Below the pieces are notes generated by a model, which ran no database searches, was not told the origin of the DNA, and was given only the letters and a program-made list of their open reading frames with translations. Shown here one piece after another: positions 34,292-62,108 of a stretch of 64,000 nt of DNA. The stretch's first letter is position 1. Each line of letters begins with the position of its first letter. The stretch lies in NCBI RefSeq assembly GCF_006363955.1, contig NZ_CP040948.1, positions 1,736,001 to 1,800,000 on the forward strand, in the 5' to 3' direction. Source of the DNA: Methylophilus medardicus. GTDB taxonomy: Bacteria; Pseudomonadota; Gammaproteobacteria; Burkholderiales; Methylophilaceae. The position numbers and the translations under genes are program-made.

Positions 34292-34478
34292 TGATGGCTC
34301 CCAATTCAGGAGACGAAGGTGCAATCACGTCATGCATTCAGTTCAAATGACGCGCGGGACAACCGTGCGTCTGAATAAATACATGCGATCAAAGGCTAGA
34401 CATACAATCAGCGAGACAAATCAAGCTTAATGCATCTGCCGAGGACACCCCGCCTCAAACGTTAACAATAAAAAAATC

Positions 34479-34643
34479 ACGGCAGGTCTCCTGGCTCTCA
34501 GGTCCTAATTATTTGCCCATGCCTTCCCGAATGACTTCAGTGGCGGAGTTCGCAGCAAATAACTCGCTGATCACAGTTGCGGGGGCAGCCCTGGCTTGAC
34601 GATTCGTGTAAAAATCACACTCCAGGTTCCCTATTAAATGCGA
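34479..34643 (-). ncRNA. Cobalamin (B12) riboswitch in the nrdA leader
   Basis: Read on the minus strand, the leader contains the cobalamin-riboswitch core in order: GGGAA, GGAG...A, CCAGGGCTGCCCCCGCAACTGT (the B12 box region), GCCACTG, GGGAAGGC and GAGAGCCAGGAGACCTGCC. Seven U follow at once (34470-34476), which could form an attenuator, though I could not resolve a clear terminator stem. B12 riboswitches usually switch genes off when adenosylcobalamin is present. The next gene is nrdA, about 187 nt downstream, with no other coding sequence between. Confidence 0.93.
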
Positions 34644-34677
34644 AAGAAGAAGTTCTTTTGCATACCGTATGGGCATG

Positions 34678-34706
34678 ACTATAAATCAATATATAGACAT
34701 CATCAA
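34678..34706 (-). promoter_or_regulatory. Sigma-70 promoter of nrdA
   Basis: Minus strand: -35 TTGATG (34701-34706), 17-base spacer, -10 TATAGT (34678-34683). The expected start near 34671 places the whole riboswitch in the 5' leader. An NrdR box fills the spacer. Confidence 0.7.
34684..34699 (-). promoter_or_regulatory. NrdR box 1 (within the nrdA promoter)
   Basis: The core CAATATATAG matches the palindromic NrdR consensus acaCwAtATaTwGtgt across all ten central positions. It lies between the -35 and -10 hexamers, so bound NrdR would block RNA polymerase. Confidence 0.7.
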
Positions 34707-49654: not shown

Positions 49655-50926
49655 ATGCAAACCGATCTCACCGCCGAACAAACCATTCTCTTGGCCAAAC
49701 TCAGACATATCGAAGAGTTAGAGCGTCTGGTAATTTGTACCGAATTTGTAGAGACGCTTGGCCAAATGGTGCATCAAATTCAGGCTGAACGTGGCGCCAG
49801 TTGTCTCTATCTGGCTTCGACCGGGCAACATTTTGCCAGGGAGCGTGCCGATCTCGTGGCACAAAACAGTCCGCTAGATCACCGCTTTAAGCAGGCACTG
49901 CAACGCCACCTGCATGCCAATCCACAAGCCGACGCCAAACAATTGACACTGGTCTCTTGGATATTGCTGGGCTTTGATCAACTCACGGCATTGCGCCATC
50001 AAGTCACCTTGCACCAAATTTCATTTGAAGACTGCATACAATCGTTTACGCGCCTCATCGGCAGCCTCATCTCCTTAATCTTTGAAATCACCGACAATAC
50101 GGTCAACACCAAGATTTCAAGCAGTCTATTAGCCCTCTACAACTTGGTGCAGGGCAAAGAGTTTGCGGGCCAAGAACGTGCAGTTGGTGCTTATTTGTTT
50201 GGTTCCGGCAGGTTGCAGTTAGCGCATCAGCAAAAATTGATGGAACTCATTGCACTACAAGAGCGCCATTTTGAGTCGTTCTGCCAATTCGCCACGCCGA
50301 CGTTACGTGATGCCTGGGCTTTGGCGAGGGTGTCAGATACGCAGCGCACCTATCAACAATATCAAACACGACTTACGCTTGCCAAACCGGAGCAGTCGTT
50401 GCAGGCCAAAGATGCAGATATCTGGTTTGAGCTTTGTAGCCAACGCTTGACCGAACTCTGGCAAATTCAATGTCTGCTGATTCAAGACATGCATCATATG
50501 CTCAACGCATTGGTAGAAAGCGCCCGTCAGGATTTGGAAAAAACCCGTCAATATTTGCAGCAACTACAACGCAAGAGCAGCCCGACTAAGCCCGATAGCA
50601 CGTTTTTTAACCTGTCTATTCCGGTAGAGAATGCCTATGCCTTTTTGAGCCACCATCCCAACCAACCCTACCCGATAGAGTCAGTGCTGTCTTTGTTACA
50701 GCAACAGTCGCAGCACATTGCAGAGGTAGAGTCAGAGTTATCAGACACCAAAAAAGCCCTCACTGAAAGAAAGCAAATAGAACGGGCGAAAGGCCTACTC
50801 ATGAGCAACTTGGGCCTGAGCGAGGTGGAGGCTTACAAAAGCATGCGGAGTACCGCCATGGAACAAAAACGCAAAATCATTGATGTGGCAGAAAACATTC
50901 TGCTTCAACACAAACTACCGCAATAA
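49655..50926 (+). CDS. nasR: Nitrate-responsive antiterminator NasR (NIT-ANTAR)
   Basis: A 423-residue protein that combines a nitrate/nitrite-sensing NIT domain with an ANTAR RNA-binding domain. The NIT part is helical and includes the ERGASCLYL motif (about residue 45) that marks it. The C-terminal ANTAR (about 345-415) shows LTERKQIERAKGLLMSNLGLSEVEAYKSMRSTAMEQKRK, the three-helix signature. In Klebsiella NasR binds the nasF leader when nitrate is bound and stops termination. The leader directly downstream here has exactly the expected hairpins. The ATG at 49655 is preferred over a TTG at 49649. There is no clear ribosome site, so translation may be weak. Confidence 0.94.
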   Translation: MQTDLTAEQTILLAKLRHIEELERLVICTEFVETLGQMVHQIQAERGASCLYLASTGQHFARERADLVAQNSPLDHRFKQALQRHLHANPQADAKQLTLVSWILLGFDQLTALRHQVTLHQISFEDCIQSFTRLIGSLISLIFEITDNTVNTKISSSLLALYNLVQGKEFAGQERAVGAYLFGSGRLQLAHQQKLMELIALQERHFESFCQFATPTLRDAWALARVSDTQRTYQQYQTRLTLAKPEQSLQAKDADIWFELCSQRLTELWQIQCLLIQDMHHMLNALVESARQDLEKTRQYLQQLQRKSSPTKPDSTFFNLSIPVENAYAFLSHHPNQPYPIESVLSLLQQQSQHIAEVESELSDTKKALTERKQIERAKGLLMSNLGLSEVEAYKSMRSTAMEQKRKIIDVAENILLQHKLPQ

Positions 50927-50950
50927 CCAACCCATGTTAATGGTGCATCC

Positions 50951-50965
50951 GCACCCGAATGGTGC
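50951..50965 (+). promoter_or_regulatory. NtrC-binding site upstream of nasF
   Basis: GCACC-CGAAT-GGTGC is a perfect inverted repeat of the NtrC half-site, identical in layout to the glnA site (GCACC-N5-GGTGC). A further GGTGC at 50942-50946 overlaps it on one side. The site lies about 100 bases upstream of the sigma-54 elements, as usual for enhancer sites. Confidence 0.75.
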
Positions 50966-51052
50966 GCATCAAGTTGGCATCAAACGCCGCTTAGGCTGCG
51001 AAATAAAAACAAAAAACCAATCAAAATCAGTCCCTTAATAAAAAGTTCCGCG

Positions 51053-51069
51053 TTGGCATGCCATTTGCT
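51053..51069 (+). promoter_or_regulatory. Sigma-54 promoter of the nas operon
   Basis: TTGGCATGCCATTTGCT contains GG and GC ten bases apart, as in the -24/-12 consensus TTGGCAC-N5-TTGCT (one difference). Transcription should start near 51081, ahead of both hairpins and the terminator. Confidence 0.85.
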
Positions 51070-51111
51070 AACGTTTATTTAAGCAGTGACGTCTGAACAA
51101 GACCAACGAGC

Positions 51112-51151
51112 TTACCGACCACTGATCAATGGCGATCACTGCGTCGGGTAA
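51112..51151 (+). ncRNA. ANTAR target hairpin P1 in the nasF leader
   Basis: A stem with small bulges (TTACCGACC ACTGATC / GATCACT GCGTCGGGTAA) closes a six-base loop AATGGC (51128-51133). The loop has A at position 1 and G at position 4, the positions required by ANTAR proteins. Confidence 0.8.
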
Positions 51152-51187
51152 ACATTACTCTTATCAACCGAACTGGTTGGCAATACT

Positions 51188-51201
51188 GGACAAAGGCGTC
51201 C
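51188..51201 (+). ncRNA. ANTAR target hairpin P2 in the nasF leader
   Basis: A GGAC/GTCC stem closes the six-base loop AAAGGC (51192-51197), again with A1 and G4. Its 3' half (GGCGTCC) is also the 5' arm of the terminator, so P2 and the terminator exclude each other. Confidence 0.78.
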
Positions 51202-51249
51202 TGAGTGTAGACAAAAAAGTCTGCATTCAGGACGCCTTTTTTGTTTTTT
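51195..51249 (+). terminator. NasR-controlled intrinsic terminator before nasF
   Basis: An 18-bp stem (GGCGTCCTGAGTGTAGAC / GTCTGCATTCAGGACGCC) has an AAAAAA loop and is followed by TTTTTTGTTTTTT. It lies between the promoter and the first gene, so it must be overcome for expression. NasR bound to P1-P2 would hold P2 and prevent it. Confidence 0.92.
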
Positions 51250-51282
51250 ATTTCCCGTGAATCACTCTTTTCAGGAGCCCTT

Positions 51283-52596
51283 ATGCGCAGTACTGACAAA
51301 CCTACCGTCGACACCCCCTCTGACATTGATCTGCCGACCGCCGCGACGCCGGTAGATCATACGCGGCGCGACTTTTTCCGTCAGGCCATGGCGGGCGCCT
51401 TTGGCGCGGCTGCCATGATGAATATGGTACCGGCTGCCATTCGCAGCCAGGCATGGGCTGCAGGTTCTGATGCGCCAGAGATCACCGAAGTCAAAGTGGG
51501 TTTTATTCCCCTGACTGACTGTGCCCCGATTGTTGTCGCCGCGCAAATGGGGTTTGATAAAAAATATGGCATCAAAATCATCCCGTCCAAAGAAGCTTCT
51601 TGGGCTGGGGTGCGCGACAAAATGGTCAATGGCGAGCTGCATGCGGCCCATGTCCTCTATGGCCTGATTTATGGGGTTCAACTGGGCATTGGGGGTCAAC
51701 AAAAAGACATGAACATTCTCATGACTTTAAACAATAACGGTCAGGGCATCACCTTGGCCAACCAGCTTAAAGAGAAAGGCGTCACCAGCGGCGCTACCCT
51801 CAAGCGCCTGCTTGAAAACGAAAACCGAGACTTTACCTTTGCCCAGACGTTTCCCACCGGCACGCATGCCATGTGGTTGTATTACTGGCTAGCCAGTTAC
51901 GGCATCAATCCGATGCAAGATGTGAAAACCATCGTTGTCCCCCCGCCACAGATGGTCGCCAATATGCGTATCGGCAATATGGACGGCTATTGCGTAGGCG
52001 AGCCATGGAACGCGCGTGCTATCTACGACAAAATTGGTTTCACGGTCGCGACCACACAAGACATCTGGACCGATCATCCGGAAAAAGTGTTGGGCACCAC
52101 GGCGGAGTTTGTGACCAAACACCCGAATACGGCCTTAGCACTCACCAAAGCGATTTTGGAGGCCTGCCGCTACATAGATGCGACCAAAAACCGCCCTGAA
52201 GTGGCCAAATTGATTGCAGGGAAAGCCTATGTGAACGCACCGGAAGAGGTGATTGAGGGGCGCTTCTTGGGTCACTATGACAATGGCATCGGGAAAAAAT
52301 GGGAAGACCCTAATTACATGAAGTTTTTCAATGATGGCAAGGTGAACTTCCCTTACCTGTCTGACGGCATGTGGTTTCTCACCCAGCACAAGCGCTGGGG
52401 GCTACTCAAGTCCGACCCGGATTACTTAGGCGTGGCGAAAAAGGTCAACCGCATTGATATTTATACCGAGGCGGCCAAGTCACTGGGCATCAATGTGCCG
52501 GTTGACGTCATGCGCACAAGCAAGCTCATGGATGGCGTGGTGTGGGATGCAAAAGATCCCAAAGCTTATGCCAATAGTTTCAAGGTAAAAGCCTAA
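51283..52596 (+). CDS. nasF: Nitrate ABC transporter substrate-binding protein
   Basis: A 437-residue periplasmic nitrate-binding protein of the NrtA/NasF family. A twin-arginine signal is present (TRRDFFRQAMAGAFGAAAM, residues about 27-45), so export is by the Tat route. The mature part shows the family text VKVGFIPLTDCAPIVVAAQMGF and MWLYYWLASYGINP. The ATG at 51283 has AGGAG at 51273. It is the first gene after the regulated leader and is followed by the permease and ATPase genes. Confidence 0.94.
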   Translation: MRSTDKPTVDTPSDIDLPTAATPVDHTRRDFFRQAMAGAFGAAAMMNMVPAAIRSQAWAAGSDAPEITEVKVGFIPLTDCAPIVVAAQMGFDKKYGIKIIPSKEASWAGVRDKMVNGELHAAHVLYGLIYGVQLGIGGQQKDMNILMTLNNNGQGITLANQLKEKGVTSGATLKRLLENENRDFTFAQTFPTGTHAMWLYYWLASYGINPMQDVKTIVVPPPQMVANMRIGNMDGYCVGEPWNARAIYDKIGFTVATTQDIWTDHPEKVLGTTAEFVTKHPNTALALTKAILEACRYIDATKNRPEVAKLIAGKAYVNAPEEVIEGRFLGHYDNGIGKKWEDPNYMKFFNDGKVNFPYLSDGMWFLTQHKRWGLLKSDPDYLGVAKKVNRIDIYTEAAKSLGINVPVDVMRTSKLMDGVVWDAKDPKAYANSFKVKA

Positions 52597-52615: not shown

Positions 52616-53524
52616 ATGAACGTGGTTAGTTTAAAGCAAGAAAAAAGCGCGCAGGCTGTGAAAACTGCCTCTGCGCAACCTGTGATGGCGGTGGTTACCC
52701 CTCTCTCAACCACGGCTACCAGCACCAGCGCGCCCAAAGGCGCCGCATGGGCGGCAACTTTCCGTCGTGTGTTTGAATGGGGGTTGCCGCCTGTGATTGG
52801 CTTAATGATATTTGCGGCGATTTGGGCGGTGGTGGCCGCATTAACCCAAGGATTACCGGGGCCACTCAGCACTTGGCATGCCGCAGTGGTGCTGTTCAGT
52901 GACCCTTTTTACATCAACAACCCAAACGACATGGGCATTGGCTGGAACATTCTCAGTTCGCTCAAACGGGTGGCGACAGGGTTTGGACTCGCTGCCATCG
53001 TGGGTATTCCGATGGGCTTCATCATTGGCCGCTATCACTTCATGTCCAGAATGGCCGCACCCATTATCAGCCTGCTCAAACCTGTCTCACCGCTGGCATG
53101 GCTACCGATTGGCTTGTTGGTGTTTAAAGCAGCCGACCCTGCGGCGATTTGGGTCATTTTTATCACCGCCGTCTGGCCAATGGTGATCAATACCGCGGTT
53201 GGCGTCAGCAAAGTCCCGCAAGATTATATGAATGTGGCCAAGGTGCTCAACCTGTCCGAATGGAAAGTCGTCACCAAAATCTTGCTGCCCTCTGTGATGC
53301 CCTATCTCATGACAGGCGTCAGGCTTGCCATGGGCGCTGCTTGGCTGGTGATTGTGGCTGCAGAAATGCTCACGGGTGGGCTGGGGATTGGCTTTTGGGT
53401 ATGGGATGAATGGAACAACTTGAATGTGGAGCACATCATCATCGCCATTTTCATTGTTGGCATTGTCGGCTTGCTGCTAGAGCAGTGCCTGGTGCTGCTG
53501 GCAAAACGCTACAGCTACGAATAA
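52616..53524 (+). CDS. nasE: Nitrate ABC transporter permease
   Basis: A 302-residue integral membrane permease of the NrtB/SsuC type. Six or so hydrophobic segments lie after residue 55, and the EAA-like cytoplasmic loop is GVSKVPQDYMNVAKVLNLSEW (about 198), which contacts the ATPase. The N-terminal 45 residues are low-complexity and cytoplasmic. It is 19 bases after nasF with AAAGGAG before the ATG. Two copies probably make the channel. Confidence 0.93.
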   Translation: MNVVSLKQEKSAQAVKTASAQPVMAVVTPLSTTATSTSAPKGAAWAATFRRVFEWGLPPVIGLMIFAAIWAVVAALTQGLPGPLSTWHAAVVLFSDPFYINNPNDMGIGWNILSSLKRVATGFGLAAIVGIPMGFIIGRYHFMSRMAAPIISLLKPVSPLAWLPIGLLVFKAADPAAIWVIFITAVWPMVINTAVGVSKVPQDYMNVAKVLNLSEWKVVTKILLPSVMPYLMTGVRLAMGAAWLVIVAAEMLTGGLGIGFWVWDEWNNLNVEHIIIAIFIVGIVGLLLEQCLVLLAKRYSYE

Positions 53525-53543
53525 TACGTAAAAAGGAATTGTT

Positions 53544-54353
53544 ATGACGACCAGTGGTTTGCAAGACCGTTATGTGCTGATTGAAAACGTCAATATGACT
53601 TTTCAAACTAAAAAAGGCAGTTTTCAGGCGCTCAAAGACATCAACCTGTCTATCCAAGAAGGCGAGTTCATTTCGATTATCGGCCACTCCGGCTGCGGTA
53701 AATCAACCGTGCTCAATCTGATTGCAGGCTTGCTGCAACCGAGCGAGGGTTATCTATTTTGCGCCGGACGCGAAATTGCCAAGCCTGGCCCCGAGCGGGC
53801 AGTGGTGTTCCAAAATCATTCTTTGCTACCTTGGTTGAGCTGTTTCGACAATGTCTATCTTGCAGTTGAGCGCGTATTTGCTGACCAAGAGAGCAAATCC
53901 CAACTGGCGGACCGCACCCATGCGGCACTGGCACTGGTCGGACTCAGCCATGCCACGGAAAAACGCCCCACTGAGATCTCTGGCGGCATGAAACAACGCG
54001 TCGGCATTGCGCGTGCATTAGCCATGGAACCCAAAGTGCTGCTGTTAGATGAACCGTTTGGCGCACTGGATGCACTCACCCGCGCCGGGTTACAAGACGA
54101 GTTGATGACCATTATGGCGCGCTCAGGGTGTACGGCTGTAATGGTTACCCATGATGTAGACGAAGCCGTATTGCTCTCCGACCGCATCGTCATGATGACC
54201 AACGGGCCTGCGGCCACCATCGGTGAAATTTTGCCAGTGGACTTGCCTCGCCCACGCAATCGTCTGGCGCTGGTTGAAGACCCTGCCTACACCCATCTAC
54301 GCAGCGAAGTATTGAAGTTTTTGTATGAGCGGCACGCCAAAAAGGCGGCCTAA
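53544..54353 (+). CDS. nasD: Nitrate ABC transporter ATPase
   Basis: A 269-residue ABC ATPase. Walker A is GHSGCGKST near residue 50, the signature ISGGMKQRVGIARAL near 145, Walker B LLLDEPFGALD near 168, and the switch His in VTHDVDEA near 202. It closes nasFED, the high-affinity nitrate importer. Unlike cyanobacterial NrtC it has no extra sensor domain. Its ribosome site is AAAAAGGAA, 19 bases after nasE. Confidence 0.94.
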   Translation: MTTSGLQDRYVLIENVNMTFQTKKGSFQALKDINLSIQEGEFISIIGHSGCGKSTVLNLIAGLLQPSEGYLFCAGREIAKPGPERAVVFQNHSLLPWLSCFDNVYLAVERVFADQESKSQLADRTHAALALVGLSHATEKRPTEISGGMKQRVGIARALAMEPKVLLLDEPFGALDALTRAGLQDELMTIMARSGCTAVMVTHDVDEAVLLSDRIVMMTNGPAATIGEILPVDLPRPRNRLALVEDPAYTHLRSEVLKFLYERHAKKAA

Positions 54354-54438
54354 AAAGGGGTGCTGACGGGCGGACACCCGCCAGCACCGCATACCTCATC
54401 GAAGTATGGTTACCCCCCATTGCATAAAGGAGCAACAC

Positions 54439-55875
54439 ATGAACGCTAACCCACAGCCACGCCTGCGTCAAGTTTCAATGGCGATCTTACTGGCGGCCTT
54501 GAGCACACCCGCCTTGGCAGAAGAAGAATTACTGCCCGAATACACGTTTATGGATGCGATTAAAACCGGTAAAAACATGACCAGTTTTAGATTGCGTTAT
54601 GAATATGTACAACAAGATGGTTTGCAACCAAACAATCTGAGTAACGCGGCGAACAGTCTCAATCCAACCCGTGCGGAAGACATCAAAGATGCCAACGCAT
54701 TGACATTGCGTAGCTTGATCGGTTGGCAAACCGCCCCCTTTCATAACTGGAGCATCGCTGCGCAGTTGATCAATGTCAGCAAGCTAGACGATGATTTTAA
54801 CGATGGCACCAATGGCTTTCGTACCAATGGCGCCTCTAACCAGAACAACCGTATTGCTTATGCCAAGGTCGTAGATCCTGATCACACCGATATCAATCAG
54901 TTATACGTAGACTGGACCGGCATTAAAAACACCCGTGTCCGCGCCGGGCGCCAACAGGTGAACCTCGACAACGTACGCTTTATTGGTGACATCGCTTTCC
55001 GTCAAGTGATGCAGGTGTTCGACGGGGTCTCTGTGTTTAACAAAACCATACCGGATACTGAGTTGTTTGTTGCGCACTTTGAAAAAGTGAACCAGATTTT
55101 CACCACCGAGCGTAACGGCAACCTCGAGATTATCAATGCCCGTTACCGGCTCTCGCCTACAGAGTTTTTGGTGGGATACGGCTATCTGAGTGCCTTCGAC
55201 AATCTGGGGATGGGCAATGCCTGGTTCGGCACCGGTGCGGCTAACTTGGCAGCAGACCAATCCAACAAAACCTTTGGTATTCGGCTAGATGGCACCCACC
55301 CGTTTACGCCTAATTACCGTGCGCATTACACCGCAGAATATGCCAAACAGTCTGATTACAAAGGCGGCGATGACCGCATCGACGCTCATTACTACAAGCT
55401 TGGCGGCGGCTTTGGCATCGATAACTTCAATGTGCGCATTGATCAAGAACTGCTCTCCAGCAACAAAAATCAATTCGCTTTTCAAACCCCTTTTGGCACC
55501 AATCACCTGTTTCAAGGCTGGGTAGATAAGTTTCTGGTGACGCCGCGCGCTGGCATCAAAGACAGCTTTGTCACCGCCACCTACCGCTACGGAGATGTGG
55601 TCTTTTTTGCCGATTATCACGTGCTCGCCTCCGATGAGGATTTCTACACGGTGAATGGGGGCGCAAGCCGCACTGGCAACCGCTACGGCACAGAATGGAA
55701 CGCAGCGATGACTTGGAATGTGGATAAAAACTGGATGACCAAATTGGAGTACGGCAAATTTAGTGAAGACGATCACTTTGCGGCTGCGGCCAACACCACC
55801 AGTAATGCGGCGGGCACCCGCGGCCGTATCCGTGACACCGAAAAACTATGGCTGACCGCCATGTACACCTTTTAA
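54439..55875 (+). CDS. Outer-membrane porin, alginate-export-like
   Basis: A 478-residue outer-membrane barrel with a signal peptide (AILLAALSTPALA, cleavage near residue 26). The barrel shows TSFRLRYEYVQQDG early and the AGRQQVNLDNVRFIGDIAFRQ region that marks alginate-export (AlgE-like) porins, ending in the aromatic LWLTAMYTF. It sits between nasD and cobA in the same transcription direction, so it is probably the outer-membrane entry for nitrate or nitrite; this is an inference. AAAGGAG precedes the ATG at 54439. Confidence 0.82.
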   Translation: MNANPQPRLRQVSMAILLAALSTPALAEEELLPEYTFMDAIKTGKNMTSFRLRYEYVQQDGLQPNNLSNAANSLNPTRAEDIKDANALTLRSLIGWQTAPFHNWSIAAQLINVSKLDDDFNDGTNGFRTNGASNQNNRIAYAKVVDPDHTDINQLYVDWTGIKNTRVRAGRQQVNLDNVRFIGDIAFRQVMQVFDGVSVFNKTIPDTELFVAHFEKVNQIFTTERNGNLEIINARYRLSPTEFLVGYGYLSAFDNLGMGNAWFGTGAANLAADQSNKTFGIRLDGTHPFTPNYRAHYTAEYAKQSDYKGGDDRIDAHYYKLGGGFGIDNFNVRIDQELLSSNKNQFAFQTPFGTNHLFQGWVDKFLVTPRAGIKDSFVTATYRYGDVVFFADYHVLASDEDFYTVNGGASRTGNRYGTEWNAAMTWNVDKNWMTKLEYGKFSEDDHFAAAANTTSNAAGTRGRIRDTEKLWLTAMYTF

Positions 55876-55898
55876 TTGACCCACCCAAGGACAGTGCA

Positions 55899-56684
55899 AT
55901 GACCGCGACCGCAAAAGTCTATCTCGTTGGCGCCGGACCCGGCGACCCGGAGCTTATCACGCTCAAGGCGCTCAAGGCCTTGCAGCAAGCGGAGGTGGTG
56001 CTGGTCGATGACTTAGTCAATCCAGCCTTGCTCGCGCACTGTCCGCAGGCACGCATTGTGCCGGTAGGCAAACGCGGCGGCTGCAAGTCTACTCCACAAC
56101 ACTTTATTAACCGGATGTTGGTGGCGTTGGCAGCGCAAGGACAAACCGTGGTGCGGCTTAAAGGGGGAGATCCTTTTGTATTTGGGCGGGGCGGGGAAGA
56201 AATGCTCGCCTTGCGAGCAGCCAATGTGCCGTATGAGGTGATTCCCGGCCTGACCAGTGGCTTAAGCGCCTGCGCCAGCATGGAGGTGCCCGTCACCCAT
56301 CGCGGGCTGAACCATGGCGTCACGCTGATAACAGGCCATACCCAAGATGGTGAACCGCTGCCATGGGCGGCGCTCGTCGCAACGCAGACCACCTTGGTGG
56401 TTTACATGGGGATGCAGCACTTGCCTGAGATTAGTCGCGGCCTCATCCAAGCAGGCATGTCGCCGGAGATGCCCTGCATGGTGGTCGAAAACTGCACCCG
56501 CCCGCAGCAACGTGCCGTGGTGTCGTCACTGCAAGCGATGCCCTATCTGGCACACACACAACAGTTGAAAAGCCCAGCGATTATCGTGGTTGGCGAAGTG
56601 GTCACCCTCGCTAAAACTACGCAACAAACACAAGACTGGCAAGACCAACTGCAAAGCTGGCTCAGCGTAGCCAATGCAGCTTAA
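55899..56684 (+). CDS. cobA: Uroporphyrinogen-III C-methyltransferase (SUMT)
   Basis: A 261-residue SAM-dependent enzyme that methylates uroporphyrinogen III at C2 and C7 to give precorrin-2. The SAM-site motif VGAGPGDPELITLKALKAL at the N-terminus and the VVRLKGGDPFVFGRGGEE block are intact. In this operon it should make precorrin-2 for siroheme, the cofactor of NirB. It lacks the CysG dehydrogenase/chelatase domain, so another gene must finish siroheme. The start at 55899 is preferred; the frame opens earlier within the porin gene. Confidence 0.94.
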   Translation: MTATAKVYLVGAGPGDPELITLKALKALQQAEVVLVDDLVNPALLAHCPQARIVPVGKRGGCKSTPQHFINRMLVALAAQGQTVVRLKGGDPFVFGRGGEEMLALRAANVPYEVIPGLTSGLSACASMEVPVTHRGLNHGVTLITGHTQDGEPLPWAALVATQTTLVVYMGMQHLPEISRGLIQAGMSPEMPCMVVENCTRPQQRAVVSSLQAMPYLAHTQQLKSPAIIVVGEVVTLAKTTQQTQDWQDQLQSWLSVANAA

Positions 56685-56702
56685 GTAAAAAGGAGCGATT
56701 TG

Positions 56703-59129
56703 ATGATGAAACAGAAACTGGTAGTGGTCGGTAACGGCATGGCAGGGATGCGCGCAGTGGAAGAACTGCTCAAAATCGCCCCCGACATGTATGACATCAC
56801 CGTGTTTGGCGATGAGCCCTACCCCAATTACAACCGTATTATGTTGTCACCGGTGCTAGCCAATGAGCAAACCATTGATGACATCATTCTCAACAGCCGT
56901 GAGTGGTATGCCGAGCACCAGATCACGCTGCACACCAGCGCACGCGTAAACAACATCGACCGCGTCGCGCGTCGTGTCACCACCGAAAACGGCATTACCG
57001 TCGACTATGATCGCCTTTTGTTGGCCACAGGCTCCAAGCCGTTCATGTTGCCTATCCCCGGTGCAGATTTGCAAGGGGTGCTGGGCTATCGCGACATCAA
57101 AGATACCAACGACATGATCGCCGCCGCCAAGCAATACCAACACGCAGTGGTGATTGGTGGCGGCTTACTCGGACTAGAGGCCGCCAATGGCCTTAAGATT
57201 CAGGGCATGGACGTGACCGTCGTACACAAAAATGAATGGTTGCTTGAGCGCCAGCTAGACCGCACGTCAGGCAAGATGTTGCAAAAATCGCTCGAAGCCC
57301 GTGGGCTGAAATTTTTGCTGCAAAAAGATACTGAACAACTATTAGGCAAAGACGGCCGTGTCGTGGCTATCCGCTTCAAAGATGGCCAAGAAATCGCCGC
57401 CGACCTGGTGGTGATGGCCGTGGGTATCCGCCCCAACTATGCGCTGGCGGAATCAGCAGGCATCTATTGCAACCGCGGTATCGTCGTCAACGATACCATG
57501 CAAACCTTTGACCCTCGCGTCTATGCTGTGGGGGAATGCGTCAGCCATCGTGGCATTGCCTACGGTTTGGTCGCGCCGCTATTTGAAATGGCCAAAGTGT
57601 GCGCCACCCATTTGGCTAACTTTGGGATTGGGCTGTATAAAGGGTCGGTCACGTCCACCAAACTAAAAGTGACTGGCATTGATTTATTCTCTGCGGGCGA
57701 CTTCATGGGCAGTGATGATGCCGAAGAAATCTTGCTACACGACGCCGTCGGCGGCGTATACAAAAAACTGGTGATCAAAGATGATGCCATTATCGGTGCG
57801 GTACTTTACGGCGACACCACCGATGGCGCTTGGTATTTTCAGCTGTTGCGCGACAAAAAACCCATACACGAGATCCGCGATCATTTAATGTTTGGGCAAG
57901 ACAGCTTGGGCAATACCGGTCACCAAGGCCAGGACAAGGTGTCGACCATGACAGACGCGATGGAAGTCTGCGGCTGTAATGGCGTATGCAAAGGCACCAT
58001 CGTAAAAGCGATTCAAGAAAAAGGCTTGTTCACGCTCGATGATGTCAAGAAGCAGACCAAAGCCGGCTCTAGCTGCGGCAGTTGTACCGGGTTGGTCGAG
58101 CAAATTCTCGCCTCCACCCTTGGTGGTGGCTATGCGCCGCCATCTTCAAGCAAAGCGGTGTGTGGTTGCACAGATTTTAACCATGAAGAAGTGCGTGAGG
58201 AGATTCGAAAACATCGCTACCTGAGCATCCCCAATGCGATGAAAGGCATGGGCTGGAAAACGCCTAATGGCTGCGCGACGTGTAGACCCGCCCTAAACTA
58301 TTACCTGATCTCCACCTGGCCACATGAGGCCAAAGATGACCCACAATCACGCTTTATTAATGAACGGGTGCACGCCAACATCCAAAAAGACGGCACCTAT
58401 TCAGTGATTCCGCGCATGTATGGCGGCGTGACCTCCTCAGATCAACTGCGCAAAATTGCCGATGTAGCAGATAAGTACAAGGTGCCGATGGTGAAGGTCA
58501 CCGGCGGTCAGCGGATTGACTTGCTTGGCGTCAAAAAAGAAGATTTAACCAATATGTGGGCCGATCTGGATATGCCCTCCGGCTACGCTTATGGCAAATC
58601 GATTCGTACCGTCAAAACCTGTGTCGGCTCGGAGTTCTGCCGCTTTGGCACGCAAAACTCCACGCAATTGGGCATCGATATCGAAAAAGCCTTTGACCAC
58701 ATGTGGGCACCACACAAAGTCAAATTTGCCGTGTCTGGCTGCCCACGTAATTGTGCAGAATCCGGGATCAAAGATGTTGGCATTATTGGGGTGGATTCTG
58801 GCTGGGAAATTTATGTCGGCGGCAACGGCGGTATCAAAACCGAAGTTGCGCAGTTTTTATGCAAAGTCAAAACGGCTGAAGAAGTGATCGAGTTCTCAGG
58901 CGCCTTTATCCAAATCTACCGCGAAGAAGCGCGTTACCTCGACCGCACCGTGCATTGGATTGAGCGCATCGGGCTAGACTATGTGAAAAAACGCGTAGTA
59001 GAAGATGCCGAGGGACGCAAAGCGGCCTTTGAACGACTGTTGTACGCATTACAAGGTTCGGTAGATCCTTGGGCTGAGCGCGTCAATCATCGTGACCAGC
59101 ACAAAGAGTTCGACACGATTACCGTGTAA
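56703..59129 (+). CDS. nirB: NADH-dependent nitrite reductase, large subunit
   Basis: An 808-residue assimilatory nitrite reductase that reduces nitrite to ammonium. It has an N-terminal FAD/NAD reductase (LVVVGNGMAGMRAVEELL, about 1-380), a BFD-type [2Fe-2S] region (CGCNGVCKG...CGSCTG, about 420-460) and a second Cys cluster (CGCTDFNHEE...GCATCRPAL). The C-terminal siroheme-4Fe-4S domain is TCVGSEFCRFGTQNSTQLG with SGCPRNCAESG (about 640-690), where four Cys bind the cluster. AGGAG precedes ATGATG at 56703; a TTG lies one codon earlier. NirD is encoded further on, after narK and the kinase gene. Confidence 0.96.
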   Translation: MMKQKLVVVGNGMAGMRAVEELLKIAPDMYDITVFGDEPYPNYNRIMLSPVLANEQTIDDIILNSREWYAEHQITLHTSARVNNIDRVARRVTTENGITVDYDRLLLATGSKPFMLPIPGADLQGVLGYRDIKDTNDMIAAAKQYQHAVVIGGGLLGLEAANGLKIQGMDVTVVHKNEWLLERQLDRTSGKMLQKSLEARGLKFLLQKDTEQLLGKDGRVVAIRFKDGQEIAADLVVMAVGIRPNYALAESAGIYCNRGIVVNDTMQTFDPRVYAVGECVSHRGIAYGLVAPLFEMAKVCATHLANFGIGLYKGSVTSTKLKVTGIDLFSAGDFMGSDDAEEILLHDAVGGVYKKLVIKDDAIIGAVLYGDTTDGAWYFQLLRDKKPIHEIRDHLMFGQDSLGNTGHQGQDKVSTMTDAMEVCGCNGVCKGTIVKAIQEKGLFTLDDVKKQTKAGSSCGSCTGLVEQILASTLGGGYAPPSSSKAVCGCTDFNHEEVREEIRKHRYLSIPNAMKGMGWKTPNGCATCRPALNYYLISTWPHEAKDDPQSRFINERVHANIQKDGTYSVIPRMYGGVTSSDQLRKIADVADKYKVPMVKVTGGQRIDLLGVKKEDLTNMWADLDMPSGYAYGKSIRTVKTCVGSEFCRFGTQNSTQLGIDIEKAFDHMWAPHKVKFAVSGCPRNCAESGIKDVGIIGVDSGWEIYVGGNGGIKTEVAQFLCKVKTAEEVIEFSGAFIQIYREEARYLDRTVHWIERIGLDYVKKRVVEDAEGRKAAFERLLYALQGSVDPWAERVNHRDQHKEFDTITV

Positions 59130-59178
59130 TTCATTGATCTGGCGTGCGACAATCTGATCGCACGCCCCGGGAGACATC

Positions 59179-60390
59179 ATGCAAAAAAGCTTTTGGGAAG
59201 TCGGCCATAAACCGACACTGTTTTCAGCCTTCTTTTATTTTGACCTCAGTTTCATGGTATGGGTCATGCTCGGCCCGCTCGCGGTGCAAATCGCAGCGGA
59301 TCTGCAATTGAATCCGGCACAAAAAGGCTTGATGGTGGCAACGCCGGTATTGACTGGCGCCCTGTTACGCATTGTCATGGGCGTGCTGGTTGATCAGCTC
59401 AAACCGAAAAAAGCCGGCCTAATCGGTCAAGTCATCGTCATTGCCGCCCTGCTCACCGCTTGGCTGCATGGCATTCATAGCTACCAGCAAGCGCTGTTAT
59501 TGGGCATGTTTTTAGGGTTTGCCGGCGCTGCATTTGCAGTGGCGTTGCCACTGGCTTCCCGCTGGTATCCACCCGAGCATCAGGGGACTGCACTTGGCAT
59601 TGCGGGTGCTGGCAACTCAGGTACTGCATTAGCCGCGTTATTTGCCCCAGGGCTGGCAGTGGCTTTTGGATGGAGCAATGTGTTTGGCTTGGCGCTGATT
59701 CCGCTACTAATTGCGCTTGTGGTTTATACCGTGTTTGCCAAAGATGCGCCGGATACGCCAGCCGCTAAATCCTTGTCCCAGTACTTGGCCGTGCTTAAAG
59801 ACCACGACGCCTGGTGGTTTATGTTTTTTTACAGTGTGACCTTTGGCGGCTTTGTAGGCATGGCTTCATCACTCACGCTGTATTTTCATGACCAATATGG
59901 CCTCGACCCTGTGCATGCTGGTTACTTTACGGCGGCCTGTGTCTTCGCAGGCTCCTTGGTGCGGCCATTTGGTGGCTTGCTGGCTGACCGTATGGGCGGC
60001 ATCCGCACATTGAGCGCCATGTATGTACTAGCGGCTATTTTCTTGTTCACCTTAAGCGTTGGCATGCACACGCAACTTGCGGGCTTGGCCGTGGTGGTGT
60101 TGGCCATGGCTGCGCTCGGCATGGGCAATGGCGCGGTGTTCCAATTAGTGCCACAACGTTTCCGTCGAGAGATTGGCGTCATGACCGGGCTGGTCGGCAT
60201 GGCAGGCGGCGTCGGAGGCTTTTACCTCGCGTCCAGCCTCGGGTATTCTAAACAACTCACAGGCAGCTATCAGGTGGGTTTAGCGGTCTTTGCAGGTTTG
60301 GCGATGCTGGCACTGGTTGGGTTGTCTCGCGTGAAGCATCGCTGGCGCACCACTTGGGGTGCTGCCTCTGTCACGCGCGCTAAAATTTAG
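59179..60390 (+). CDS. narK: NarK/NasA-type nitrate/nitrite MFS transporter
   Basis: A 403-residue major-facilitator transporter with 12 hydrophobic segments. The NarK nitrate signature GFAGAAFAVALPLASRWYPPEHQGTALGIAGAGNSGTA (about 115-155) is intact, along with the second signature near GMGNGAVFQLVPQRF (about 313) and GGVGGF. It can be an uptake symporter or a nitrate/nitrite exchanger. Next to the ABC importer nasFED it is a second route for nitrate. GGGAGA precedes the ATG. Confidence 0.92.
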   Translation: MQKSFWEVGHKPTLFSAFFYFDLSFMVWVMLGPLAVQIAADLQLNPAQKGLMVATPVLTGALLRIVMGVLVDQLKPKKAGLIGQVIVIAALLTAWLHGIHSYQQALLLGMFLGFAGAAFAVALPLASRWYPPEHQGTALGIAGAGNSGTALAALFAPGLAVAFGWSNVFGLALIPLLIALVVYTVFAKDAPDTPAAKSLSQYLAVLKDHDAWWFMFFYSVTFGGFVGMASSLTLYFHDQYGLDPVHAGYFTAACVFAGSLVRPFGGLLADRMGGIRTLSAMYVLAAIFLFTLSVGMHTQLAGLAVVVLAMAALGMGNGAVFQLVPQRFRREIGVMTGLVGMAGGVGGFYLASSLGYSKQLTGSYQVGLAVFAGLAMLALVGLSRVKHRWRTTWGAASVTRAKI

Positions 60391-60419
60391 TCCATCCCCA
60401 GCCAACAACGGAAACAGTG

Positions 60420-62108
60420 ATGAAATTGCGCTTCAGTAGCGGTGAATGCAGTGTGACTGGGCCTAGACCTCGTAACGAGGACTATATTGGCTTAGTCACG
60501 CCTGCGGATGCGCAATTAGAAATTAAAGGCGCCTTGCTGGCCGTGGCAGATGGCATTAGTGGCGGCGCGGGTGGGGCCGAAGCGGCAGAAATGACCATAC
60601 GCACGCTCTGCGCGGACTACTATGCCACGCCGGACACTTGGACCATACAGCATGCTTTGGACAAAGTTTTGCTGGCGGCCAATCGCTGGGTGTTATCACA
60701 GGCCCGCAAGCATCAACACATGGCAGGTATGGCCACCACGCTCTCGCTGCTGGTATTGCGCGGACAGCGTTACGTACTGGCGCATGTCGGCGACTCGCGC
60801 ATTTATCGGTTGCGTGCGCAATCGCTACAGTGCCTGACCACGGATCATGTGTGGGACAGACCCGATATGCGCCACGTGCTCAAACGAGCAGTCGGCTTGG
60901 ATGATCAGCTCAGTGTGGATTATGCCGAGGGCTTGCTGCAAACTGGTGACGTGTATGCCATTGTGAGCGATGGGGTATGGGCGGCGCTGGGGGATGCTGA
61001 TATTCATAAGGTCTTGATGCTATATCACACGCCTCAACTGATGGCAGAAGCACTGAGCCGTCTAGCTTTAGAAAAAGGGGGGCAAGACAACGCCTCTGCC
61101 GTGGTCGTAAGGGTTGATCAGTTGGGTGACGATCATCTCACCGATATGCTTGCGGATGCTTTAAGCCTGCCCTTACCACCAAAACTGGCCATCGGCGACC
61201 AACTCGACGGTTTTACCATCACGCAAATTCTCCACGATTCGCGCGTTAGCCTGCTCTATCAGGTTAAAAATCCAGCTGGCCAGTTGTTTGTATTAAAAAC
61301 CTTGCAGGCCAGCCGGGCCGACGACCCCGCCAGTTGTGAGGCGCTGCTCAACGAAGAGTGGCTGGCCAAGCGGGTGGTGTCGCAGTGTGTGCCACAAATA
61401 TTACCCCTAAGCCGTGAGCAGCGCACCGCGCTCTATTACGTGATGACTTGGCATGAAGGCGCCACCCTGCAACAGCGTTTGAATGCCGGACACCATTTCA
61501 GCATCAATGGCGTGGCCAATATCGGCCAAGATCTGATGCGCGGGCTGAGTATGCTGCATCGGTTAAATATCGTGCACCGTGACATCAAACCCGCCAATAT
61601 TCATATGGGCAGCGACAATCGCCTCCGTATTCTCGACTTGGGCGTAGCACTTAACAGCACATTAGCCATGCCTGCACAAATCGACAATCCCGGCACGCCA
61701 AGTTTTATGGCGCCTGAGTTATTTGAAGGAAAACTGGCTGATCGACAAGCCGATATCTATGCCGCCGGCGTCACGCTCTATCACTTACTCACACGCAAAT
61801 ATCCCTATGGCGAGGTAGAGCCTTTTCAATCGCCCCGCTTTGGTGAGCCGATACGGCCCAGTCGCTATCGTCCAGAGATTCCGGCCTGGCTTGAAAACAT
61901 TATTCTTAAAGCGATTGCCCGAAAACCGGATCAGCGTTTTGAAACCGCCGAAGAAATGTTGCTCGCACTGGAACATGGCGAGTTAAAACCGATTGTGATT
62001 CCACGTACCCCGCTGATCGAACGCGCACGACTAGTGAAATGGCAATGGCTGGCCATCATCTCACTTTGCATCAACCTATTACTGATTTACTTGTTACTGG
62101 TCTCTTGA
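60420..62108 (+). CDS. Bifunctional PP2C phosphatase-Ser/Thr kinase membrane protein
   Basis: A 562-residue fusion. Residues 1-235 are a PP2C phosphatase with its motifs in order: PRPRNEDYIG, VADGISGGAGG, LAHVGDSRIYRL, IVSDGVW and GGQDNAS (metal-site Asp residues present). Residues 260-520 are a Hanks-type kinase: the Lys in FVLKTL, VHRDIKPANIHM catalytic loop, LDLGVAL (DLG in place of DFG), GTPSFMAPELFEG and DIYAAGVTLYHLL. The glycine-rich loop is degenerate. A single membrane helix (WLAIISLCINLLLIYLLLV) ends the protein, so the catalytic parts are cytosolic. It lies between narK and nirD, which suggests a role in nitrate transport or assimilation. The target is not known. Confidence 0.9.
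   Translation: MKLRFSSGECSVTGPRPRNEDYIGLVTPADAQLEIKGALLAVADGISGGAGGAEAAEMTIRTLCADYYATPDTWTIQHALDKVLLAANRWVLSQARKHQHMAGMATTLSLLVLRGQRYVLAHVGDSRIYRLRAQSLQCLTTDHVWDRPDMRHVLKRAVGLDDQLSVDYAEGLLQTGDVYAIVSDGVWAALGDADIHKVLMLYHTPQLMAEALSRLALEKGGQDNASAVVVRVDQLGDDHLTDMLADALSLPLPPKLAIGDQLDGFTITQILHDSRVSLLYQVKNPAGQLFVLKTLQASRADDPASCEALLNEEWLAKRVVSQCVPQILPLSREQRTALYYVMTWHEGATLQQRLNAGHHFSINGVANIGQDLMRGLSMLHRLNIVHRDIKPANIHMGSDNRLRILDLGVALNSTLAMPAQIDNPGTPSFMAPELFEGKLADRQADIYAAGVTLYHLLTRKYPYGEVEPFQSPRFGEPIRPSRYRPEIPAWLENIILKAIARKPDQRFETAEEMLLALEHGELKPIVIPRTPLIERARLVKWQWLAIISLCINLLLIYLLLVS

Follow-up and report, generated by a model that had tools for sequence, protein, structure and literature searches.

Organization of the nasR locus

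The genes and features described here lie in a 64-kb window (the whole stretch of DNA analysed, to which all coordinates refer) of a host genome that consists of a single 2.6 Mb contig. Along the window, these were as follows.

49655-50926, plus strand: nasR, 423 aa, with NIT at residues 38-279 and a C-terminal ANTAR domain at residues 364-416 (Pfam)
50942-50947, plus strand: extra GGTGCA half-site adjoining the NtrC site, seen in the sequence
50950-50966, no strand assigned: NtrC-type enhancer cGCACC-CGAAT-GGTGCg, with the repeat GCACC-N5-GGTGC at 50951-50965
51053-51069, plus strand: sigma-54 promoter TTGGCATGCCATTTGCT, with transcription start expected near 51081
51115-51147, plus strand: P1, ANTAR hexaloop hairpin of the predicted fold, with core TGATC-AATGGC-GATCA at 51123-51138 and loop AAUGGC at 51128-51133
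51139-51187, plus strand: linker of 49 nt between the P1 and P2 stem cores, from the fold
51164-51180, plus strand: middle (third) hairpin inside the linker, with stem UCAACC/GGUUGG and a 5-nt loop, from the fold
51188-51201, plus strand: P2, ANTAR hexaloop hairpin GGAC-AAAGGC-GUCC, with its loop at 51192-51197
51192-51249, plus strand: intrinsic terminator, with a 5' arm made of the P2 loop and P2 3' arm, an A6 loop and a T-rich tail
51283-52596, plus strand: NrtA-like nitrate-binding protein (Pfam NMT1_2), first gene of the presumed operon
52616-60390, plus strand: remainder of the presumed operon, namely ABC permease, ATPase, porin-like protein, siroheme-type methylase, NirB-type nitrite reductase and MFS transporter (Pfam and open reading frames)

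The product of nasR scored 165.5 bits for NIT and 65.2 bits for ANTAR, both above the Pfam cut-off, in agreement with a first-pass annotation of this DNA that had placed a NIT-ANTAR gene directly upstream of the leader; the leader thus has the cognate NIT-ANTAR gene that is a feature of the NasR type. The closest solved structure was that of a nitrate regulatory protein (4akk), and the nearest named NasR, from Methylophilus sp. QUAN, was 79% identical, which places the window in Methylophilus or a near relative within Methylophilaceae. By analogy with Klebsiella NasR, the protein would be expected to sense nitrate and to bind RNA. The ABC transporter of the presumed operon was of the nitrate type by Pfam, and a CmpA/NrtA gene also follows nasR and its leader in records of Klebsiella, Erwinia and Pantoea. 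A fusion of PP2C phosphatase and Ser/Thr protein kinase was noted in the nitrate gene region (60417-62108), and a bifunctional kinase/phosphatase is annotated close to nasR in Ideonella and Pseudoalteromonas as well. Elsewhere in the window there is a cobalamin riboswitch (34464-34684, minus strand, 96.3 bits).

Promoter region

Judged by the consensus sequences, the repeat at 50950-50966 is one that we take to be of NtrC type and the element at 51053-51069 is presumably a sigma-54 promoter. The inverted repeat at 50951-50965, earlier described as perfect, was the sole exact match to GCACC-N5-GGTGC in the 64-kb window, where 0.14 were expected. Thirteen of the 14 named Methylophilaceae loci carried the looser form GCACN-N5-NGTGC 5' of their leader (L106 did not), and GGTGC stood at the position of the extra half-site in 9 of 10 aligned leaders, the window's own included. 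TGGCAYN5TTGCW occurred twice in the window as opposed to 0.56 times by expectation. Judged by its letters the sigma-54 element is weak on its own, yet its position is kept in relatives; a GG-N10-GC promoter preceded the leader in all 14 named Methylophilaceae loci, which upholds the -24/-12 promoter first proposed at 51053-51069. Single motifs being weak by chance counts, conservation was therefore taken to decide. The host genome carries both ntrC (716 bits, over the cut-off) and rpoN (sigma-54 DNA-binding domain, 226 bits), so that a -24/-12 element, an NtrC site about 100 bp upstream of it and genes for both regulators were all present at the sequence level.

Predicted folding of the leader RNA

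The loops AATGGC of P1 and AAAGGC of P2, with A1 and G4 in both, had been read from the sequence in the first pass and were recovered in the predicted folds; in each hairpin the loop is closed by a C:G pair. From the earlier set of hairpins P1 and P2 were retained, P1 was found to extend to 51115-51147, and the third hairpin at 51164-51180 and the 49-nt linker, both overlooked before, were added. Within P2, GACAAAGGCGTC was invariant across 10 aligned leaders, and 0.07 matches to the P2 14-mer were expected in the window at one mismatch or fewer. In near relatives both arms of the middle-hairpin stem differ from those of the window (by eye), reading CCACTG/CGGTGG in L034 and CAACCT/AGGTTG in L036.

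The terminator stretch folded at -39.2 kcal/mol (z -9.8), and in the fold of the full leader (-73.5 kcal/mol, z -6.3) the terminator formed and P2 was open. When the 3' arm of the terminator was removed, P1 and P2 formed with intact hexaloops (127-nt fold, z -2.1), the middle hairpin and P2 being enclosed by a short helix of UACUC and GAGUG (51156-51160 with 51203-51207). Because the terminator fold opens P2 and the hexaloops form without the terminator 3' arm, P2 and the terminator are mutually exclusive in the predicted folds, as a NasR-type leader requires and as the folding check suggested in the first pass had anticipated. The sharing of a P2 arm with the terminator was also as first described, while its stated length of 18 bp was replaced by 19 uninterrupted pairs in the fold and 21 by eye.

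The 12-nt P2 motif has two exact copies in the genome, the second of which sits in a 223-codon open frame. In a search for a second leader, 8 of 28 P2-motif sites with at most one mismatch were read, and these comprised the leader's own site, the exact copy in the open frame and six one-mismatch sites without leader features. At the DNA level, the only matches of the leader in the host genome were to itself, forward and reverse.

A 43-codon open frame (51129-51260) starts inside the P1 loop and crosses the terminator. Its being open in the window (by eye) is what would be expected of a leader peptide and hence of translational attenuation; the P1 loops that read AACGG, the majority of the sites listed, contain no ATG, however, and the frame of L034 ends after 7 codons (by eye), which makes this explanation extremely improbable.

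Distribution of NasR leaders

The genome_contigs collection contained 312 stretches with a confirmed NasR relative. By title, the best 80 of these 312 loci included 71 that were beta-proteobacterial, 3 that were gamma-proteobacterial (Acidiferrobacterales, Competibacter) and 6 from bins without such a name. With 6 more from a plasmid collection, these best 80 made up 86 named loci. For 50 of them a script placed all three of promoter, P2 and terminator no more than 700 nt from the NasR match (L129 and L146 being doubtful). Among the 36 loci in which the script found no P2 or terminator (13 Aquabacterium, 3 Cupriavidus and others scattered), the leader of Klebsiella L090 was found by eye, the other 35 resting on the script. 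A P1 call was absent in 4 of the 50 leader loci, namely L129, L146, L158 and L095, in the last of which P1 was seen by eye. Promoter, P2 and terminator were present in all 14 named Methylophilaceae loci, in each of which a script that required A1 and G4 and allowed one mismatch also called P1. Three further loci lie outside the 86 (L093, L094 and L096); L093 has P2 and a weak promoter without P1, and L096 has a P2-like hairpin without P1 ahead of a nirC-type gene. When the whole leader was compared as DNA, 15 of 61 genomes matched (own included), all from one genus.

With 71 of the best 80 loci beta-proteobacterial and 50 of 86 carrying the leader, the system is therefore ordinary in this group, and one Burkholderia record already annotates the protein as 'nitrate regulatory protein'. 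The opinion given in the first-pass annotation, that the complete set was little explored in a beta-proteobacterium of this kind, was accordingly misleading as to rarity. A passage of PMC5424462 describes nasR as 'mainly found in gamma-proteobacteria', and among the papers listed there was, by title and abstract beginning, none about NasR of Methylophilaceae. As a further observation, L101, L106, L109 and L110 each have two leaders of this kind per nitrate region, 3.4-4.4 kb apart, and in some of these the first leader precedes a formate/nitrite transporter-like gene (by eye).

Spacing of P1 and P2

The window leader differs from known members of its family in one respect that had been missed before, the long linker between P1 and P2. 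The loops are 64 nt apart, which corresponds to 49 nt from core to core and to 40 nt after the extended P1. Loop distances of 45-151 nt were noted in 24 of 25 Methylophilaceae leaders; the 24 distant P1s consisted of 19 by the strict rule (at least 4 perfect pairs), 3 with one mismatch (L019 through its match L106, L034 through L099, and L100) and 2 called by eye (L036 and L046, with just two pairs adjoining the P1 loop in L046), and the remaining leader, L051, had no callable P1. Core-to-core linkers, measured in 22 of the 25, were 31-137 nt long.

Other groups with the same order of parts as the window (Variovorax, Hydrogenophaga, Polaromonas, Ideonella and Burkholderia) differed in loop distance. 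Thus, the distance was 27-30 nt in 18 of 19 Variovorax-type leaders (a set of loci in which a leader had already been found, three of which, L162, L171 and L173, lack a Variovorax title), 41-42 nt in Hydrogenophaga, Polaromonas and Ideonella alba, 54 nt in Burkholderia and 67 nt in Ideonella dechloratans and I. oryzae. The P2 loop of Burkholderia, AACAGC, departs from the A1/G4 rule with A rather than G at position 4 in all five loci with a leader (L092, L098, L140, L144 and L156). Distances in Klebsiella, Erwinia and Pantoea were 25, 26 and 27 nt, respectively. The Klebsiella leader (K. pneumoniae record) shares with the window an upstream NIT-ANTAR gene, a sigma-54-like element, the loops AATGGC and AAAGGC and an NrtA-type first gene, but differs in its loop distance (25 as opposed to 64 nt) and in its NasR, which is 29% identical to that of the window.

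Comparison with published spacing covered the EutV and actinobacterial rules. For curated ANTAR RNAs of Actinobacteria, a passage of PMC8164766 requires a linker of 2-25 nt, a range exceeded by the 49 nt between the window cores. Enterococcus EutV-type leaders resemble the window in their A1/G4 hexaloops and in the opposition of P2 and terminator and differ in having eut linkers of 5-12 nt; linkers of 3 or 14 nt led to a drastic loss of induction (passages of PMC3369931), and 20 additional nt abolished EutV antitermination in vitro (a passage of PMC8934654). No report of such long linkers was met in the titles, abstract beginnings and passages of the papers listed, a body of literature that mostly excludes subscription papers. 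Because the linker is defined only as variable in passages of other work (PMC3369931), the window leader was filed as a variant. It is a NasR leader of known kind with a linker that, across its family, breaks the published spacing rule.

Conservation of the distant P1

Of the 25 Methylophilaceae leaders, 16 had a strict AAHGRY hexaloop (at least 4 perfect pairs) 5' of P2, at 55-151 nt in every case, as compared with a mean of 0.23 in dinucleotide shuffles (200 rounds, largest 2). Any A1/G4 hexaloop was found in 20 of the 25, as compared with 2.85 (largest 7). In the Variovorax-type set, strict AAHGRY hexaloops appeared in 18 of 19 leaders, all at 27-30 nt. A count of pairs over 19 distinct Methylophilaceae P1s, with L043, L051 and L107 left out and L014, L023 and L031 dropped as well for repeating the 16-mers of others, gave 90.5% of cells paired and a covariation score of 0.825 (0.317 shuffled, 0.09-0.23 slid), figures that lean towards structure in that these P1s were pre-chosen for A1, G4 and mostly pairing. 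For this reason sites were also picked by the letters AAHGG alone: in 22 of 25 leaders such a site had at least 4 of its 5 flanking pairs, and among distinct sites this was so for 15 of 22, against a mean of 5.0 when right arms were dealt anew (largest 11, 2000 rounds). The leaders are related, so that these P1 statistics are not independent and none is a probability. All tests together, the sequences indicate that P1 is a hairpin kept by selection.

These results bear on the possibility that P2 alone matters for antitermination, NasR binding only to it and the distant P1 having another role or being a relic. Spacing that is both long and variable would suit such an arrangement, as would the affinity of K. 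oxytoca NasR for a single hairpin (approximately 12 uM, compared with approximately 1 uM for both; passages of PMC7496416). A relic would decay, however, whereas full-consensus P1 hairpins were far above chance in the 25 leaders and flanks paired around loops chosen by letters only; we regard this possibility as unlikely.

It is still less likely, in our estimation, that P2 works, at normal spacing, with the adjoining hairpin at 51164-51180, whose loop would have changed, and that the distant hairpin is an extra. Several relatives do have a hairpin before P2, and in four ANTAR loci of NasT size (L015, L017, L024 and L028) one of three A1/G4 hexaloops lies close to P2. Nevertheless, the near hairpin has a loop of 4-5 nt in those Methylophilaceae NasR leaders in which it was read (the window's own, L013, L014, L021 and L023), and the near A1/G4 calls at 22 nt (L034/L099 and L041) both fold with a loop of 3-4 nt. 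The reading that we prefer remains that in which the distant P1 is the partner of P2.

Folding of the linker

Linkers of 22 of the 25 Methylophilaceae leaders (L036, L046 and L051 excepted) had a mean z of -1.30 relative to shuffles, with 13 of 22 below -1; six linkers of 31-42 nt did not reach -1. In 12 other leaders with loop distances greater than 40, the mean z was -1.22, with positive values for L160, L169 and L166. The predicted path between P1 and P2 was 22 steps in both Ideonella L091 and Burkholderia L092, in neither of which P2 folded as a hexaloop, and 18-22 steps in six short-linker leaders; it was 26 in L160 and 32 in L063. In Methylophilaceae (22 of 25 leaders, without L043, L051 and L107) the path was 21-56 steps, and in just 3 of 22 did the real linker give a shorter path than its shuffled versions, as bridging would lead one to expect. 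These leaders are related, so that the linker counts are not independent either. Because of the path result the folded linker was dropped as a bridge in Methylophilaceae and bridging is not claimed there; in the Ideonella and Burkholderia leaders the predicted folds make it possible. The stretch between NIT and ANTAR in the window NasR is longer than that in Klebsiella NasR, and the Variovorax NasR is likewise longer. As a cause of long spacing this was rejected, since Variovorax has the longer stretch together with short RNA linkers.

Related RNA families and other ANTAR loci

No Rfam family matched the window leader at its gathering score, P11 reaching 24.5 of 70 bits and narK 16.1 of 43.2 bits, and a scan of 20 related loci at the gathering level gave nothing. 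Sub-threshold matches to miRNA, snoRNA and sRNA families followed the terminator stem and were discarded. The narK RNA model (RF03032) has the look of a sigma-54 promoter with an AAAGAC hexaloop hairpin behind it. In 229 genomes at E 0.001, narK and P11 were each matched in 10, with 2 and 1, respectively, over gathering. Seven of 8 narK loci were read: by eye, L179-L183 had a promoter, P1 and a T-rich terminator, with P2 at 22-33 nt from P1; L185 had P1 only and L186 was apparently a chance match. Six P11 (RF00625) loci within L187-L192 were also read, all of which had a P2 of GGAC or AGAC type and a terminator; in 5 of the 6 a further A1/G4 hexaloop lay 18-62 nt upstream, and L190 repeats L182. 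From their sequences, the narK RNA and P11 matches look like ANTAR leaders. Control of nirBD by antitermination is reported for P. aeruginosa, to go by the title of one study.

The leaders of L015, L017, L024 and L028 have one hexaloop 17-25 nt and another 57-117 nt before P2, with a poor promoter match in L015 and L028. A 77-aa open reading frame with little beyond ANTAR was seen in L002 (1474-1707, minus strand) and in the host genome (C1:379989-380132), with radC not far away (by eye), and short open frames (65-88 aa) matching ANTAR were present in 15 of the 22 genomes searched within the genus, the host's among them. Such a stand-alone ANTAR protein, having no sensor, could compete for or share hexaloops. 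In four congeners (G004, G005, G014 and G021) a second ANTAR match occupied a frame of 227-240 aa approximately 1.35 kb from that of nasR; this second frame is possibly NasT-like. The NasS-NasT system of Pseudomonas, Paracoccus and Azotobacter also provides nitrate-responsive ANTAR control of nas genes (passages of PMC3795266 and PMC5424462) but consists of two proteins, with NasT having no nitrate-sensing domain.

Proposed mechanism and implications

We conclude, with a probability of about 0.88, that this RNA is a transcription attenuator which responds to NasR and is driven by a sigma-54 promoter that NtrC activates; P1 would act across the linker of approximately 49 nt. Under nitrogen limitation, NtrC-P would switch the promoter on, and where nitrate is absent RNA polymerase would stop at the terminator (51192-51249). 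In response to nitrate or nitrite, the NasR dimer would free its ANTAR domains and bind the P1 and P2 hexaloops; with NasR holding P2, the shared arm would be kept out of the terminator and the genes for nitrate uptake and reduction would be read. Dual control of this kind, by nitrogen through NtrC and by nitrate through NasR, had been predicted in the first pass and is well supported, still as a prediction, by anatomy, gene context and conservation.

How P1 might act over such a distance is suggested by two published observations, that NasR is a constitutive dimer (a passage of PMC7496416) and that a recruitment role has already been proposed for the P1 of EutV (a passage of PMC8934654). We favour a P1 that would first recruit NasR and then pass it on to P2, spacing being looser for the constitutive NasR dimer, and the strict EutV rule may accordingly not be valid for this NasR branch. 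In a more general form, for which we consider the odds to be about even, the branch (Methylophilaceae and, more mildly, Burkholderia, Ideonella and others) works with hexaloops 31-137 nt apart core to core, either because P1 recruits and hands over NasR or because two dimers bind independently, and the fixed-distance rule of EutV is not general.

The use of two hairpins by an ANTAR dimer is unsettled, and the successive 'recruitment hairpin' model of EutV, as set out in passages of PMC8934654, leans on the short eut linker. Natural leaders with spacing of 45-151 nt and nearly fixed loop letters offer a ready test of how the two hairpins are used. If the general form is true, leaders of this kind would escape any model with an upper linker limit of 25 nt, which suggests that linker-limited search models undercount ANTAR regulons.
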